Below are positions 3,761-31,659 of a DNA stretch of 64,000 bases, one piece after another; positions within the stretch are counted from its first letter, which is position 1; each line of letters starts with the position of its first letter. The notes beneath the pieces were generated by a model. The model made no database searches, was not told the origin of the DNA, and worked only from the letters and a program-made list of their open reading frames with translations. The position numbers and the translations under genes were made by a program. Origin of the DNA: Methanoregula sp. (GTDB lineage Archaea; Halobacteriota; Methanomicrobia; Methanomicrobiales; Methanospirillaceae); assembly GCA_026625165.1 (NCBI GenBank), contig CP112999.1, positions 434,001 to 498,000 of the forward strand, given 5' to 3'.

Positions 3761-4440
3761 GCAACCCGCAGATATCCGGAAATCAGGGTTGAAGAGATGG
3801 GATTATACCCGTTGTTCAACAAGGGGGATTCAACACCTTCCGGTCTGGGTTGCACCATGAGGATATCTTTATAATGTTTTTTATACAATAATTAAGGAAG
3901 CCGATATGAAGAAGTCCTATGGGCTGGTGCAGGGGATCTCCTCCTGCATCAGATCCTGACGGCGGGCTTTGGGATCAGGATATCAGATCCCGCACTGCCG
4001 GAGGATTTCTTTGATTGGTGAACTCCGTGCATATAATATGGGCGGAAAAGCCGAGAAGGAGTTGTGATCCGTCACAACGGGCTGACAAGGTAGGTCTGAC
4101 AACAGCGCATGGGTGGACGTCAATAAGACGAGCCTGTTCCTCTGGGTGCCGGCGTGCAAACCCAAAAAGGATGCGTTATCGTCAGGATCTCTTTCGCGAG
4201 ACAGGAATGCCGGTTTGTCCGGCAGTTCCAGAACCGGGCGAGGTTTAAACATCGTCAGGCATTGGTGGAAGCGCACCATTAGAATGGCTGTGCCACCTGT
4301 CTGACAAAAGATCAGGGATCGCCCCGGTTCCGCGTGTTGGCGTCTGTAATGAGCGTAAAAAAATACACTCATTCTCGGAATATTAACAGTTCGTAACGAA
4401 TTGAGAAAAACCTACACGCATTATAAGGATTGATAAATTC
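3761..4440. other. 680-base gap between tfx and the ribosomal operon
   Basis: No believable protein gene. A minus-strand open frame over 3983-4372 has no protein-like composition. The gap contains a TATA-like element (CTTTATAAT, 3867-3875) and a dense series of perfect hairpins described under the candidate RNA, and just before rpl3 an AAGGA ribosome binding site (4425-4429). Confidence 0.6.
3900..4375 (+). ncRNA. Candidate structured non-coding RNA
   Basis: Seen directly: 10-bp hairpin 3924-3933/3943-3952 (one G-U); 7-bp 3953-3959/3975-3981; 6-bp AACTCC/GGAGTT (4021-4026/4058-4063) or, competing with it, a perfect 7-bp GTTGTGA-tccg-TCACAAC (4061-4078); perfect 6-bp TGCCGG/CCGGCA (4208-4224); and a nested long-range structure in which 4231-4240 pairs with 4320-4330 (one bulge) around 4254-4261/4298-4305, 4264-4267/4294-4297 and 4273-4276/4290-4293. 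A TATA-like element 25-30 bases before 3900 favours the plus strand, and a last hairpin 4348-4353/4368-4373 has an A-rich loop. I could not find the conserved RNase P RNA blocks or the SRP helix 8 loop. A 17-codon frame with a possible ribosome binding site (3906-3959) lies at its 5' end. The strand, ends and function are inference. Confidence 0.4.
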
Positions 4441-5454
4441 ATGCCAAAGATTAACAGACCACGCAGGGGTTCGCTTGCATACAGCCCGAGAACACGTGCA
4501 AAGAGCCCGATCCCCAGATACCAGTCATGGCCTGCCTACGATGGTGCGCCTATTCTGCAGGGGTTTGCCGGCTATAAAGTAGGTATGACGCATGTGATCA
4601 TGGTGGACGACCATAAGGACAGTCCTACTGAGGGCAAAGAGATCATGGTGCCTGTTACCGTGATCGAGGTCCCTGCCATGAAGATCGCAGCAATCCGTGC
4701 CTATTCACGGGATACGTATGGAAAGCATGCGCTGACCGAAGTCTGGTCGGAGCAGCTCGACGACGTGCTCGGCCGCCGAATCACCTTGCCAAAGGACTAT
4801 AACCCCGAAAATGCCAGAAAGGCGCTCACCGATGCAATCGCGGCAGGAAAAGTCGCGGAACTCCATGCTGTCATGTACACCCAGCCGGTCACCCTCACAG
4901 GAGTGCCCAAAAAAGTGCCCGACCTCATGGAGATCAAGGTTGCCGGGGGGGCGATCGACAAGCAGTTCGAATTTGTCATGGGCCTGCTCGGAAAAGAGGT
5001 GAACCTGACAAATGTTATCCAGATCGGAACATATGCAGATATCACCGCGATCACAACCGGAAAGGGGACGCAGGGTGCAGTAAAGCGCTGGGGCATCATG
5101 CTGCGCAAGCGCAAACACTCCCGCGGGAAAAAGGAGCGGCACATCGGCACACTCGGCCCGTGGAACCCGCACCACGTCCGCTGGGAAGTCCCGCAGATGG
5201 GGCAGATGGGGTTCCAGCAGCGCACCGAATTCAACAAGCGCATCCTGAAAATCGGGGAGAACGGAAGCGAGATTACACCAGCCGGAGGTTTCCTCCACTA
5301 TGGTGTGCTCAACAGCCCGTATGTCCTGATCAAGGGGTCCATCCCGGGCCCCGCCAAGAGACTGGTGCGTATCCGTCCCGCAATCCGGCAGGGCGAACAT
5401 ATTGTCCGAATGCCTACGGTCCAGCACGTGAGCGTCCAGAGCAAACAGGGGTGA
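4441..5454 (+). CDS. rpl3: Large ribosomal subunit protein uL3
   Basis: First gene of the ribosomal operon, 337 residues, usual for archaeal uL3. It starts [20 protein letters not shown] and carries the conserved central KGKG/KRWG-type segment ([13 protein letters not shown]), which lies near the peptidyl transferase centre and organises 23S rRNA assembly. AAGGA is 11 bases upstream of the ATG. It is followed after 4 bases by rpl4. Confidence 0.97.
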
Positions 5455-23805: not shown

Positions 23806-24339
23806 ATGGTAAAAGTTCAGGCAAAAAAGGCAAAAACCTCGGGGAAAAAGACGGTCCGGCCCAGAGCAAAACCTGTGGCAAAACCGGCAAAACGTGTGCC
23901 TGTCCGGGCGGCAGCAAAAAAACCGTCGGCACAAAAGAAAGCCAAATCCGGTGCAGTGAAGGCATCCCGCCGGTATAAATGCAGGGTGTGCGGGTACGTG
24001 TACTCCGAGTTGCGGGGCGAACCCCATAACGGGATCCCTGCCGGCACGGCGTTTGAAGACCTTCCTGACACGTACGTCTGTCCTGTCTGCGGTTTTCAGG
24101 GAAAAGGCAGGATCGGCACGTGGGGCTTTGAAGAGTGGCGCCCGACGAAATATCTCTGCTCGTTGTGCAATTACATCTATGACGAGGCGCGGGGAGAACC
24201 GCACCGCGGGATCAGACCCGGAACAAAATTCGAGGACCTGCCGGATGATTACAGGTGCCCTGTCTGCGCTCTTGATCTAACGATCAGCAAAGGTTTCGGA
24301 GATGTTCTCAAGCAGGGTTTTTCACCACTCGATATTTAA
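23806..24339 (+). CDS. Tandem rubredoxin with basic Lys/Ala/Pro N-terminus
   Basis: 177 residues. Residues ~1-55 are almost purely Lys, Ala, Pro, Arg, Val and Ser. Two rubredoxin domains follow, each with the paired motif CxxCGY-type and [16 protein letters not shown]...YVCPVCGF and [20 protein letters not shown]...[10 protein letters not shown]. Each should bind one Fe(Cys)4 centre and carry one electron. GGAG at 23795 supports the ATG at 23806. The second domain has CNY where CGY is usual. The partner enzymes are unknown; the basic tail may dock nucleic acid or an acidic partner. Confidence 0.9.
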
Positions 24340-25318: not shown

Positions 25319-25951
25319 ATGACCGTTAAGGATATTCCCAAACTTCTGGAAAAAGCGTTTCAGGAAATGAAGGTCGGTCGGTATGAGCAGGCCCTGGAAT
25401 TCTATGACCTCGTGCTTGCCACCGACCCTTTAAACCTGACAGCCCTTGCAAACAAGGGGAAGGCGTACTATTACCTAGGAAGGCACGAGGATGCAATCGC
25501 ATGGTTTGACCGGGCGCTCGCAGTCAGCCCGGCCAACGCTGCTATCCTGTACGAGAAAGGATATACGCTTCGCAAGATTGAGCGGTATGACGATGCAATC
25601 CGGAGTTTTGACCGTGCGCTTGCAATCTTCCCGGACTTTCTGTTTGCCTTAAGCAACAAGGGGTACGCGCTGAACGCGATTGGGATGTACGATGACGCAA
25701 TCGCCTGTTTTGATCGTGTCCTTGAAATAAGCCCGAACAATATCCGTGCAATGACAGCAAAAGCCATCGCCCTGCGAGGGGTGGGAAAGAACGAAGAAGC
25801 CATCGCTTATTTTGACAAGGCACTGGAATTTAACCCCATTAATGCATTCATCTGGCACAATAAGGCGATCGCCCTGCGCAACCTTGGCAGGACAAGGGAA
25901 GCGGACGACTGTATCCGTATGGCGGATTACCAGACCGGGACTACGCGCTGA
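25319..25951 (+). CDS. TPR repeat protein
   Basis: 210 residues, made of about six tetratricopeptide repeats of 34 residues (recurring pattern such as ALEFYDLVLATDPLNLTALA, then NKGKAYYYLGRHEDAIAWFD). Such repeats form a superhelix that binds peptides or proteins. No signal or membrane segment was seen, so it is cytoplasmic; its partner is unknown. Confidence 0.9.
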   Translation: MTVKDIPKLLEKAFQEMKVGRYEQALEFYDLVLATDPLNLTALANKGKAYYYLGRHEDAIAWFDRALAVSPANAAILYEKGYTLRKIERYDDAIRSFDRALAIFPDFLFALSNKGYALNAIGMYDDAIACFDRVLEISPNNIRAMTAKAIALRGVGKNEEAIAYFDKALEFNPINAFIWHNKAIALRNLGRTREADDCIRMADYQTGTTR

Positions 25952-26046: not shown

Positions 26047-27084
26047 TTAGATGAGTTTAAAGATGGGGTGGCTCTCTGCCTTGCACTCGATACCGAGCTG
26101 GCGTGTCGCTTCGAGGATCGTGATATCCGTGTAGGCCTGTGCGGTCATCATCGCCTCGACGTTCTCGATCGGGCCGTACATGATCAGGTCAGCACCGAGA
26201 GTGCTTGCGATCATGTTGCAGCCGATATCGGGTGCGGACCATGCAGCCTGGCGGATACCCTCCATGCCGCCCAGGTAGTGGTGCGACATCTGCTGGAGGA
26301 GGAGGTCTTTGCCTTTGTAACCCTCTGCGAGTACCGAGGGGGTCTTGCTGGTACCTTTCCAGCGCTTGAGCCAGGTCCACGCAACTGTCATGTTGTGGTA
26401 TGCACCACCGGTCGGGTAGCCGTGGATTGCCTTGCAGGCAAGGATCTCACGGTATGCACCGCCGGACCCGAGACCGAGCGGGGTTGCCGCGGTGTCAAGG
26501 ATCGGGCGGGTGATACCGCACTCTTCAGCGATCTGCAGCATTCCCTTTGTCTGGCCGGCTACGCCGCCCTCTACAAGCACTTTCTCCCTGCCTGCGACTG
26601 ACGGGTCTGCAGGGTTGAATGCAAGAACGATTGCGGAGTTGACATCGCTGTTCTTCAGGGCTTCGACGTTCTCGGGGAGCATCGAACCGTTGATCGAGTT
26701 GTAGATCGCACGGTTCGCAAGGCCAACCTCGGTCACGTACTTGCAGGCATGTGCCAGCGCCTTTGGAACGGATGAGTCCATCAGGAACGCGGTCTTGTTG
26801 TCGATACTGTCAAACCATGTGAAGTAGCTCTCGAATGCTTCGGGGAATTCCGCAAGGATCTGGATGAAGTGCGGGATCCCGGTCATGTCAGAGAGTTCCT
26901 GACAACGGTTCCAGAGTGCCTCGGCTTTTGGTTTGTCGATAACACCCTTATGGTCGTCCTTTACGATCTCATGCTTGTTATAGAAGATCGAGGCGCCCAG
27001 TACGGTCGGGTACTCGCCCGGCTGTCCACCAATCTTTGTGCCGTTGAAGTCCCAGACGCTCTGTTCTTTTTCAAATCTGAACAT
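26047..27084 (-). CDS. mtrH: Methyl-H4MPT:CoM methyltransferase subunit MtrH
   Basis: 345 residues. MtrH is the peripheral subunit that moves the methyl group from methyl-tetrahydromethanopterin to the cobamide on MtrA; its TIM-barrel resembles other corrinoid methyltransferases. Recognisable are MFRFEKEQSVWDFNGTKIGG, PGEYPTVLGASIFY and the glycine-rich AATPLGLGSGGAYREI loop. GGAGGTG is placed before the ATG. It is the last gene of the mtr operon. Confidence 0.97.
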   Translation of the reverse strand: MFRFEKEQSVWDFNGTKIGGQPGEYPTVLGASIFYNKHEIVKDDHKGVIDKPKAEALWNRCQELSDMTGIPHFIQILAEFPEAFESYFTWFDSIDNKTAFLMDSSVPKALAHACKYVTEVGLANRAIYNSINGSMLPENVEALKNSDVNSAIVLAFNPADPSVAGREKVLVEGGVAGQTKGMLQIAEECGITRPILDTAATPLGLGSGGAYREILACKAIHGYPTGGAYHNMTVAWTWLKRWKGTSKTPSVLAEGYKGKDLLLQQMSHHYLGGMEGIRQAAWSAPDIGCNMIASTLGADLIMYGPIENVEAMMTAQAYTDITILEATRQLGIECKAESHPIFKLI

Positions 27085-27101: not shown

Positions 27102-27836
27102 TTACACCAATACCATCAGTTTCTGCAACAGGAACAGCAGCATCACAAATACGACAAGTCCTGCGACCAGTCCGTACAGTATACCGATATCCCGTCCAAT
27201 CTTTCTGCCAACACGCTGTGCAATCTCTGCATCCACAAACTCGATTCTCTTCTCGATCTTGTCGAGCCGTTTCTCGATCTCGAGGAACTGCGGGTTTGCA
27301 CCTGCAGCAGCGACTTCAACACCACCGGCAGCCTCTTTGACCTCGACGACCATCGGTTCGCCGAACGCGCCGGGGTCCCTGGTCTTGAGTTCGTTGATCT
27401 TGGCCTTGATAGCGTTGAGGTCTTCAGATTCCATGATGTTGACGACTTCGACCTGCTGCTGGAAGCGCTTGATAGCGTCGTCTTTGAGGTTCTCGATGAA
27501 GGGAATAGCACCTTCAGCACCGACGACCCTGCCCTCTTTGACTCCGTTTTTGTGGAGTGCGATCATGGTCTGGCCGGCGAGGTGACCTTTCACCTCAGTA
27601 CCGCAACAGAGCATGAACCGGATGTTGGGGTTGGCGACGATATTGGCGATGACCTTTTCGAGCCCGAGGTTCTCTGTCTTACAGGAACCGCACATTGCGG
27701 CGCCCCCGTCACAGATCCCCTTCTCATCGAGGTGAGATCCCATGGTCACTACGGCGACGGGGCTGTTAGCGTCACCGGAGACAAAGTCTCCCTTGACGAG
27801 TGGCCATCCGCTTGCGGGTGATTTCTTGTCTGCCAT
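27102..27836 (-). CDS. mtrG: MtrA(cobamide domain)-MtrG fusion protein
   Basis: 244 residues in the operon position of mtrG. Residues 1 to about 169 equal the soluble domain of the mtrA gene upstream at the protein level, including the GHLAG His (residue 85) that ligates the cobamide cobalt. After a short Ala/Gly linker, residues ~184-244 are a normal Mtr[40 protein letters not shown] and one C-terminal membrane helix. MtrG is normally a stand-alone ~70-residue subunit, and no such gene exists here. The start is ATG 27836; an upstream TTG-type extension is not used. A second cobamide-bearing subunit in the Mtr complex is the inferred result. Confidence 0.93.
27328..27836. repeat. Direct repeat copy 2 (MtrA domain of the fusion gene)
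   Basis: 509 bases equal to 28264-28772 at an offset of 936 bases, with one mismatch seen (27369 G against 28305 A). The repeat ends exactly at the ATG of both genes; upstream and downstream sequences differ at once. Confidence 0.97.
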
Positions 27837-27846
27837 TTTTTTCACC

Positions 27847-28047
27847 TCACACAAGTAATGCCGGCACAAGGATCAGGAGCACGGCGACCAGCATTCCAGC
27901 TGTGAACCCGACAATTCCGGAAGCGGAAATGCCCGAGTCAAGCTTGTTGGTCCGTGCAAGGATCTGTGCCTTGTAGCGGATGTTCTCAGTCATATTCTCG
28001 ATTGCGACCATCCTGATGGGTCCTGTAGGTTTTGCTTCTTCTGCCAT
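27847..28047 (-). CDS. mtrF: Methyl-H4MPT:CoM methyltransferase subunit MtrF
   Basis: 66 residues from the ATG at 28047, preceded by GAGGTGAGAG. It has a short soluble start ([20 protein letters not shown]) and one C-terminal membrane helix ([20 protein letters not shown]), as in MtrF, a small membrane subunit of the Mtr stalk. It lies between mtrA and the MtrA-MtrG fusion. Confidence 0.9.
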
Positions 28048-28052
28048 TTCTC

Positions 28053-28772
28053 TCACCTCAACCACAGGAATCCGAGCAGGGCGAACGACACGATCAGACC
28101 GATCATAAGGCCTTCGATCTTGCCTGCATAGACACCGGCGGCAAACTTGTCGCGGTAGCCGATGTTGGTCACCATCTTCTCGATTATCTTCATACGGGCG
28201 GTGATAAGTGCAACCTCACCGGACAGGGCCTGAACTGCCCCGCCTGTCTCCTCTCCCCCTGCAGCAGCCTCTTTGACCTCGACGACCATCGGTTCGCCGA
28301 ACGCACCGGGGTCCCTGGTCTTGAGTTCGTTGATCTTGGCCTTGATAGCGTTGAGGTCTTCAGATTCCATGATGTTGACGACTTCGACCTGCTGCTGGAA
28401 GCGCTTGATAGCGTCGTCTTTGAGGTTCTCGATGAAGGGAATAGCACCTTCAGCACCGACGACCCTGCCCTCTTTGACTCCGTTTTTGTGGAGTGCGATC
28501 ATGGTCTGGCCGGCGAGGTGACCTTTCACCTCAGTACCGCAACAGAGCATGAACCGGATGTTGGGGTTGGCGACGATATTGGCGATGACCTTTTCGAGCC
28601 CGAGGTTCTCTGTCTTACAGGAACCGCACATTGCGGCGCCCCCGTCACAGATCCCCTTCTCATCGAGGTGAGATCCCATGGTCACTACGGCGACGGGGCT
28701 GTTAGCGTCACCGGAGACAAAGTCTCCCTTGACGAGTGGCCATCCGCTTGCGGGTGATTTCTTGTCTGCCAT
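28053..28772 (-). CDS. mtrA: Methyl-H4MPT:CoM methyltransferase subunit MtrA
   Basis: 239 residues, the normal length. The soluble cobamide-binding domain (~1-170) carries [12 protein letters not shown] with the cobalt-ligating His at residue 85; a linker and a C-terminal membrane helix (~215-238, [18 protein letters not shown]) follow. MtrA carries the methyl group between MtrH and coenzyme M. Its first 509 bases recur in the fusion gene downstream. Confidence 0.97.
28264..28772. repeat. Direct repeat copy 1 (mtrA)
   Basis: Partner of 27328-27836. One mismatch in 509 bases (28305). Such identity over third codon positions means recent duplication or ongoing gene conversion. Confidence 0.97.
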
Positions 28773-28773
28773 A

Positions 28774-29067
28774 TTAACCCACCTTGATCATCTGGAATGC
28801 AATGACTCCTGCAATGAGTAGTCCGACCGCAAGACCGTACCAGAACGAGTTCATTGTGCCCGCGATAGGAAGTGCCTGCTCGCGGTTCGGGAACGATGCA
28901 AGGTAGTTACCCTCGCCCGAGAGCATGTTGACCAGATCGTCGGTCACGCTCTCAAGCACCGTGACTTTTTCCATGATGGGCGTGAACGATTCGCCTGCGG
29001 TGGTGATGATGCCGACAACAGGGTCAGCGACAAGCCCGAATTCCGGAAGTACCAGAATGTATGCCAT
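28774..29067 (-). CDS. mtrB: Methyl-H4MPT:CoM methyltransferase subunit MtrB
   Basis: 97 residues from the ATG at 29067 ([19 protein letters not shown]); a longer frame into mtrC is not used. One C-terminal membrane helix ([19 protein letters not shown]) follows a short cytoplasmic part. It starts two bases after the mtrC stop. Confidence 0.95.
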
Positions 29068-29068
29068 G

Positions 29069-29917
29069 TCAGTGTGCCTCCACTTCAGGAATCGGTTTTG
29101 CATCAAGCCATGCGGCTGCGTCGCGCTTGGAGAGCTCAATGTACTGCATGTATGTGTATGCCCACCCGACCAGTGCGATAACAAGCGAGATCAGTGCTGA
29201 TCCGGTAGTTATCAACGCAAAGGACATGATGGCTGCAACGATCATGCTTAAAAATCCGCATTCAGCGGCACACATGAGCATGCGGTCCTGCGTCCAGCCA
29301 GGTCCGAGACATGCATTGAACGGGTGCTGGATTGCCAGTGCACCGAGCATGAACGCCACGGCAATCAGGCACCCTCCGATAAAGGTTGCCTGGAAGCTGG
29401 GAAGACTGAGGCCAAAGACCATGACCGAACCGGTTGTCAGCGCTGCAAAGGTGAACCCGCCGGTCATTAAGACTGCAAATCCCATAAGGGTGAATGCGCC
29501 TACAACTGCAAGCTCTGTCAGCGACTGGACCATCGCCGGAATCTTCATGTTCAGCACGTCGTTTGAGAGGTAGCCGAGGATCAGGCCGATGACTGCTGCG
29601 AGCACGAGTGCAACGATTGGGGCTGCGACACCGAACTTGGTCGCAAGCAGCATCGCAATGACACCGGACCCGAACGAGATCATACCCGCCGAGGGAACAC
29701 CGGTACCGATACCATAGCTGCACAGCACCTTGATCGTGTTGCTGCCCCAGACGAGTGCTGCAATCACGGCAAGTCCGCCGAAGAACGAGAACATCTCGGT
29801 ATTTGTCACTACGTTTAAGTAGGACAGGTAGAGACAGACAAGGCTGGCAATGATACCTGCCACCATGATCTTGGTGTGCGGGATGCCCCCTGCAATAACT
29901 TCAATTTTTACTGTCAT
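29069..29917 (-). CDS. mtrC: Methyl-H4MPT:CoM methyltransferase subunit MtrC
   Basis: 282 residues, about seven membrane helices. It is one of the three large subunits (C, D, E) thought to form the sodium-ion path of the Mtr pump. Recognised by GGIPHTKIMVAGIIASLVCL, YGIGTGVPSAGMISFGSG and IQHPFNACLGPGWTQDRMLM. It lies nine bases after mtrD. Confidence 0.96.
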   Translation of the reverse strand: MTVKIEVIAGGIPHTKIMVAGIIASLVCLYLSYLNVVTNTEMFSFFGGLAVIAALVWGSNTIKVLCSYGIGTGVPSAGMISFGSGVIAMLLATKFGVAAPIVALVLAAVIGLILGYLSNDVLNMKIPAMVQSLTELAVVGAFTLMGFAVLMTGGFTFAALTTGSVMVFGLSLPSFQATFIGGCLIAVAFMLGALAIQHPFNACLGPGWTQDRMLMCAAECGFLSMIVAAIMSFALITTGSALISLVIALVGWAYTYMQYIELSKRDAAAWLDAKPIPEVEAH

Positions 29918-29926
29918 TTCTCCACC

Positions 29927-30760
29927 TCACACCGTAACAATCAGGATCGCGACGAACCCGCAGAGTGCGGTTGCGACAGCAGATGCGACGACTGATCGCG
30001 GCCAGCGCTTGAACTTCGGGTCGTGAGGGCCTTCGATTGTTCCGGTGATATTGTAAGCGGTCAGCACCGCGTTCACGAGGAACATACCGACAGCGAATAT
30101 TCCTGCTGCCGAAATTGCGATCGGCAGGATCTGGGCTTCGGTTGCCCTCATCATCGCGGGCAGTGTTGCCTTGTACAGGTCAAGGAGCATCAGGTAGATG
30201 AGCGTACCGCCTGCTCCTCCGAGAATACCGCCGATGACTCCACCGACGAACGAGACGAACGGCAGTCCATGTCCTTCAGTACCCTGTGACTTGAATTCAG
30301 GCTGTGTGTCACCGGTGATCGGGTCTACCTTGATCTTGCCAGATGCTGAAGGGATACCCATACCAAAGACGTAGATGAAGTTCACCATCATGCAGGTGAT
30401 TGCCATCATCAGACCGCCACCGACGCCGCCGGTGATAACTGCAACGGTCGTTCCCAGTTCAGCTGCCCATGCCCCGCCAAAGAGCCCGGCGAGACCTGCA
30501 CCGGCAGCGAGCATTGCAACACCGGTTGCGATACCGGGAGCCTGCCCCATCGCAGCCGGCGCACCGCCGACCGGGACGAAGTGGGTGCCAAATCCGATCA
30601 GGACACCGCCGATCACCATACCGATAAGGGCCATGAGGCCGAGGCCTGGAGCGATCTTCCAGCAGATTCCGAGAATTACGAGCAGCATGACGACACCCAC
30701 CGCCATTGCGGTCGGGTTCATTGCGCCGCCAGCTGCCGGTTTTGCTGCAACTGCGCTCAT
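29927..30760 (-). CDS. mtrD: Methyl-H4MPT:CoM methyltransferase subunit MtrD
   Basis: 277 residues with about six membrane helices. Typical are VGGAPAAMGQAPGIATGVAM and FVYVFGMGIPSASGKI-type sequence (NFIYVFGMGIPSASGKIKVD), where acidic and polar residues in the membrane are implicated in Na+ transport by the family. The start overlaps the mtrE stop by four bases. Confidence 0.96.
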   Translation of the reverse strand: MSAVAAKPAAGGAMNPTAMAVGVVMLLVILGICWKIAPGLGLMALIGMVIGGVLIGFGTHFVPVGGAPAAMGQAPGIATGVAMLAAGAGLAGLFGGAWAAELGTTVAVITGGVGGGLMMAITCMMVNFIYVFGMGIPSASGKIKVDPITGDTQPEFKSQGTEGHGLPFVSFVGGVIGGILGGAGGTLIYLMLLDLYKATLPAMMRATEAQILPIAISAAGIFAVGMFLVNAVLTAYNITGTIEGPHDPKFKRWPRSVVASAVATALCGFVAILIVTV

Positions 30761-31659
30761 GAGGACGCCTCCTTTACCGGTTCTGTGTATGGCCCGTAGG
30801 TCTTGCGTGCCCAGACTTCAATGTACCGGTCGATGATCGTAAAGACCAGGATCATCAGGACACCGACAATGATCGCACCCCATCCTCCACCGATCTTCTC
30901 AAAGAGGATCGTGCGCCAGAGTTCGAGGAATACGATCAGGCCAAAGCAGACTCCTGATGCGGGTCCGCCCAGTTTTGCCGTGAAGAACCCGTTGTCAATT
31001 GAGTTGCGCTCGCCGGCTTCGGCATAGCGGACGATGTTGCCTGATGCTGAGATCGGGACGCCTGCACCAAACTTCTGGTTCTGGTACTGGCGTTCCTTGC
31101 CATAGTACGGGTTGCCTGTCGCAGATCCTGCTGCACCGAGTGCAATACCCCATAACAGGCCGAGCAGCGGCAGCGGGAACGGGTGTCCCAGTGCGGCGTT
31201 CATCAGGTAACAGAGGGTGACGGTACAGAAGATAGCGATAAATGCATGCGCCATCGTGACCGTGGTCATCGACTTCAAAATGTCAACGTAGACCGGCTGC
31301 CCGAATTTCTTCAGGCTTGCCGTCCTGCCGAGATACGCGGTGGTTGCGTACACGCCCTGGACAAAGACTGCGAGGACACAGCCAAGGACGATCGCGAGGA
31401 CCGCGTTGATCTGCATCGCCATAAATGCCCATGCGAGTCCGGCGCCCAGAGCGCACCAGAGACCGTATGCCGGGGGTTCACCTGCGACCGCCTTATTGAA
31501 GATGCGGTGCAGGAAACCCATCTGCGGAGCGAGCTGAACCTGTGAGTTCGGGTCACCTTGTGATCCGATGTTGGATTCAGTATCTTCCGCAGCTCCGGCT
31601 ACGGTGGCAAGAGCTCCTGTCAATGCAGTAATTCCAATGCCAAATACAATATTCTCCAT
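30757..31659 (-). CDS. mtrE: Methyl-H4MPT:CoM methyltransferase subunit MtrE
   Basis: 300 residues with about six membrane helices. It opens the operon, as in other methanogens. Recognised by GAAEDTESNIGSQGDPNSQV, LAPQMGFLHRIFNKAVAGEP and KFGAGVPISASGNIVRYAEA. A strong purine-rich GGGAGGAGG ribosome binding site lies at 31664-31672. Confidence 0.97.
   Translation of the reverse strand: MENIVFGIGITALTGALATVAGAAEDTESNIGSQGDPNSQVQLAPQMGFLHRIFNKAVAGEPPAYGLWCALGAGLAWAFMAMQINAVLAIVLGCVLAVFVQGVYATTAYLGRTASLKKFGQPVYVDILKSMTTVTMAHAFIAIFCTVTLCYLMNAALGHPFPLPLLGLLWGIALGAAGSATGNPYYGKERQYQNQKFGAGVPISASGNIVRYAEAGERNSIDNGFFTAKLGGPASGVCFGLIVFLELWRTILFEKIGGGWGAIIVGVLMILVFTIIDRYIEVWARKTYGPYTEPVKEASS

Follow-up and report, generated by a model that had tools for sequence, protein, structure and literature searches.

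In most methanogenesis, energy is conserved at the step catalysed by the Mtr complex. Its operon in the Methanoregula sp. DNA analysed here (a stretch of 64,000 nucleotides, hereafter the window) raises the question of why the MtrA domain is encoded twice, nearly without differences, and once as a part of the MtrG protein. We hold it to be almost certain that this locus represents the mtrA-1/mtrA-2b pair known from the Mtr operon of Methanomicrobiales, in which an ancestral duplication was fused to mtrG and gene conversion followed. The fusion is real but already known. It was published in 2015 as mtrA-2b, so that the statement of the initial annotation, that no description of such a fusion was known to it, does not stand. 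Wang et al. (2015, G3, PMC4632066) reported mtrA-2b between mtrF and mtrH in every member of the Methanomicrobiales then available, and a survey of 2018 (PMC6053082) recovered mtrA independently, among the rare cases of long-lasting conversion.

The genes of the window are organized as mtrEDCB-A1-F-[A2-G]-H, with the fusion located between mtrF and mtrH and the canonical mtrA-1 upstream (Table 1). The repeat of 509 nt with one mismatch, starting at both ATG codons, had been noticed beforehand and was confirmed by base-by-base comparison. The two copies are offset by 936 nt, and the single mismatch, at 27369/28305, is synonymous; residues 1–170 are the same in both proteins, which diverge from residue 171. 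The boundary of the repeat coincides exactly with both ATG codons, and the sequences before them differ, including the ribosome-binding regions. A chance origin of the repeat is excluded, since these two copies account for all the repeated 60-mers found in the 64-kb window.

Table 1. Features of the Mtr operon and of its internal repeat, in positions of the window
Feature	Positions	Strand	Evidence
mtrA-1, canonical MtrA: soluble corrinoid domain and its own C-terminal stalk/membrane helix	28053..28772	-	MtrA only: PF04208 (E=4.7e-81); TIGR01111, 325.8 bits against a cut-off of 249
mtrA-2b, MtrA domain joined in frame to MtrG, 244 aa	27102..27836	-	MtrA, residues 4–171: PF04208 (E=6.8e-81); MtrG, residues 183–234: PF04210 (E=5.4e-24); sole MtrG of the genome
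Repeat copy 1, 509 nt, MtrA domain of mtrA-1	28264..28772	-	Base-by-base comparison
Repeat copy 2, 509 nt, MtrA domain of the fusion, mismatch at 27369	27328..27836	-	Base-by-base comparison
Linker and MtrG stalk/membrane helix part of the fusion	27102..27320	-	Copy comparison, domain matches
mtrF, between the two MtrA copies	27847..28047	-	PF09472 (E=3.9e-24)
mtrB	28774..29067	-	PF05440 (E=3.8e-30)
mtrH, methyl-H4MPT-binding methyltransferase, downstream of the fusion	26047..27084	-	PF02007 (E=1.3e-101)
mtrC, mtrD, mtrE, membrane subunits	29069-29917, 29927-30760, 30757-31659	-	Canonical mtrEDCBAFGH order and sequence

The occurrence of PF04208 in both ORFs agrees with the earlier proposal that two corrinoid domains are encoded per Mtr unit. 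The second copy had also been described as continuing in frame into a complete MtrG. The frame is indeed continuous and the helical part is whole, but the alignment begins at position 11 of the 64 positions of the model, and the MtrG is not literally present end to end. Because fused MtrG sequences align from about positions 5–11 and most free ones from positions 1–2, the MtrA linker has, in the fusion, taken the place of the short segment with which free MtrG begins. The closed single-contig genome (2.17 Mb, 98.8% complete) encodes exactly two MtrA domains and a single MtrG, which is the fused one; neither a third mtrA nor a free mtrG was found genome-wide, which bears out the absence of a free mtrG first noticed at this locus.

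Outside the operon, the forward strand of the window encodes a protein with two rubredoxin domains after a Lys/Ala/Pro-rich N-terminal tail (23806–24339) and a TPR protein convergent with mtrH (25319–25951). A relative (locus L151) has a TPR protein at the same place (4043–4831), and from this likeness the neighbourhood of mtrH and the TPR protein may be conserved.

Scanning public genomes gave 78 loci; the copy comparisons were made on 47 distinct loci in which the two copies are both intact. All the named loci belong to the Methanomicrobiales (Methanoregula, Methanolinea, Methanoculleus, Methanofollis, Methanomicrobium, Methanocorpusculum and Methanospirillaceae), and those closest to the locus of the window are from Methanoregula/Methanoregulaceae. 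Fusion loci that lack a name come from MAGs falling into this group as well. A search for MtrG homologues with an N-terminal MtrA domain, suggested in the initial annotation, was made with the MtrG model in 199 genomes of the order; it gave 163 matches, mostly in open frames of about 245–300 aa, that is, fused. One MtrG per genome, in the fused form, occurs through families f1–f6 of the order, and the junction is alike throughout, being composed of the domain, some 21–22 residues and, where the motif was found, the RLD motif of MtrG. In genomes from elsewhere in the phylum, the MtrG frames listed are 56–143 aa long; at the loci that were read, MtrG is free and MtrA has a helix of its own. Seemingly short or free frames of MtrG within the order (85–240 aa, for example in genomes G060, G093, G120, G103 and G198) were considered as real free MtrG and rejected: the regions fetched for them all run into a contig end after no more than a few hundred bases, or adjoin a run of N or a collapsed repeat. 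None of the genomes examined in the order retains a free mtrG. As judged from these genome sequences, the MtrA-MtrG fusion is an order-wide trait of the Methanomicrobiales.

Across the 47 loci, the two copies of one genome are far more alike than the copies of different genomes. The identity at the DNA level within genomes has a mean of 95.8% and a median of 97.8% (range 79.3–100%), against a mean of 76.2% for mtrA-1 between genomes. Homogenisation reaches the silent sites too, since third codon positions are 90.5% identical within and 53.6% between genomes, and purifying selection alone does not explain this identity. The copy of the same genome is nearer than the closest orthologue in 41 of the 47 genomes. 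In the maximum-likelihood DNA tree the copies are sisters in 42 genomes, including the pair of the window, and for 40 of these pairs the support is 95 or higher; in the other five the copies of close relatives interleave. The likeness is confined to the domain: the 30 nt upstream of the starts are 39% identical between copies (25 loci), and identity decays beyond the end of the MtrA domain, as conversion limited to the homologous stretch predicts. Taken together, these sequence patterns support the view that gene conversion keeps the copies alike. The earlier study reached the same explanation, with significant conversion tracts by GENECONV/RDP reported for all pairs, near-identity attributed to conversion, and identities of 92.4% within and 73.7% between species (PMC4632066). 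The copies are just 79–84% identical in Methanomicrobium, a Methanospirillaceae MAG and two genomes of family f2 (pairs labelled L065, L066, L073, L020 and L025). In these lineages homogenisation is weaker, slowed or stopped, which makes them suited to the question of a possible specialisation of the copies.

The initial annotation had left the choice between gene conversion and a very recent origin. The first part is upheld by the higher identity within than between genomes. A recent and independent tandem duplication in the Methanoregula lineage, instead of an old duplication kept alike by conversion, might be suggested by copies that are 99.8% identical and 936 bp apart; it is nevertheless very improbable, since the operon position is identical and the junction similar order-wide, no free mtrG occurs in the genomes examined, and the same duplication and fusion would be needed dozens of times. 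Order-wide synteny thus led to its rejection. Still less credible is an assembly artefact, in which the assembler would have duplicated a single mtrA or mis-joined it to mtrG, an alternative that had been raised beforehand. The repeat does disturb assembly, as at least 36 of the 78 public contigs have an end at or within the mtrA repeat and some MAGs carry collapsed or N-filled versions: in L038 and L091, the absence of mtrF and of the helix of MtrA looks more like the collapse of a repeat than like a true deletion, and the apparent frame breaks of L093 and L151 are N-filled scaffold gaps. However, the 47 distinct loci, single-contig genomes included, have both intact copies with different C-termini, copies up to 21% diverged cannot be an assembly duplicate, and the errors seen all remove or break a copy and none creates one. 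Replication in these loci decided against the artefact.

Under the preferred reading of an old duplication followed by conversion, the soluble cobamide domain of mtrA was duplicated downstream of mtrF in an ancestor of the order and joined to the N-terminus of mtrG. Gene conversion between copies spaced by 936 bp has afterwards kept the soluble domains near-identical, while linkers, stalk helices and upstream regions diverged. One practical consequence concerns metagenomic data. Many short-read assemblies of the operon break at the near-identical repeat, so that Methanomicrobiales MAGs seemingly without mtrA, mtrF or mtrG should be read as having assembly gaps. Many contig ends in the loci L033–L110 fall at the mtrA repeat.

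As for function, the whole order encodes two corrinoid domains per Mtr unit, near-identical over very long times, and the biochemical meaning of the doubled domain is a published puzzle. The histidine of the GHLAG motif, previously pointed out in both copies, is residue 85 (KGHLAG) and aligns with the KGH/QGH histidine of the solved MtrA structures, to which the domains here are closely related; the cobalt-ligating residue of M. marburgensis MtrA is HisA84 (PMC10998594). It is kept in 94 of 94 copies (47 loci), and 2 of the 246 residue differences between copies lie within residues 76–90 around it. In solved Mtr, a threefold stalk is built from the helices of MtrA, MtrB, MtrF and MtrG, whose N-termini lie in the cytoplasm; the soluble domain of MtrA is flexible and shuttles between MtrH and MtrCDE (PMC10998594, PMC12774963). 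Since the MtrA and MtrG helices adjoin in this stalk, a second soluble domain on MtrG would provide two tethered cobamide domains per protomer and up to six corrinoid arms per trimer. Both domains could then pick up the methyl group at MtrH and swing over to MtrCDE, where its transfer to CoM would drive the export of Na+.

We give an even chance to a two-armed pump, in which both MtrA domains of each protomer would carry cobamide and work, six per trimer, sharing MtrH and MtrCDE. If true, the Na+ pump would differ in stoichiometry or in turnover from the solved three-arm complexes. Both mtrA paralogues were stated to be essential in PMC4632066, which refers to other work. That the second domain does no more than extend the stalk structurally, or serves assembly or dosage without a part in catalysis, seems unlikely. 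One MtrA domain per protomer suffices in other methanogens (PMC10998594), but in both copies the cobalt-ligating histidine and the segment around it are strictly conserved, also in pairs that have diverged elsewhere; conversion could itself explain the kept segment in near-identical pairs, less so in those of 79–84% identity.

Compared with known systems, the locus presents no substantial difference from mtrA-2b (PMC4632066). It shares the MtrA domain joined to MtrG, the place between mtrF and mtrH, the canonical mtrA upstream, and copies that are closer within than between species and sister in trees; the identity of 99.8% is above the order average of that study. What is added here is a larger sample, the tie to the stalk structure and the contig breaks at the repeat. 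The parallel MtrA-MtrF fusion, mtrA-2a, of Methanococcales and Methanocella arvoryzae (PMC4632066) likewise puts a second MtrA domain, homogenised with mtrA-1, on a single-helix stalk subunit, but it is fused to MtrF, sits between mtrA-1 and mtrG and has an independent origin. Frequent fusion of mtrF and mtrG is cited in PMC9982363. In the [AF] fusion of TACK Mtr, with the operon EDCB[AF]FGH, MtrA is also joined to a small stalk subunit; in contrast, it is placed on a duplicated mtrF, and mtrA itself is not described as duplicated (PMC9982363). Finally, the canonical Mtr of Methanothermobacter and Methanosarcina (PDB 8Q3V, 9QTQ; PMC10998594, PMC12774963) has the same eight functions and stalk helices, and differs in its free MtrG and in its one corrinoid domain per protomer.
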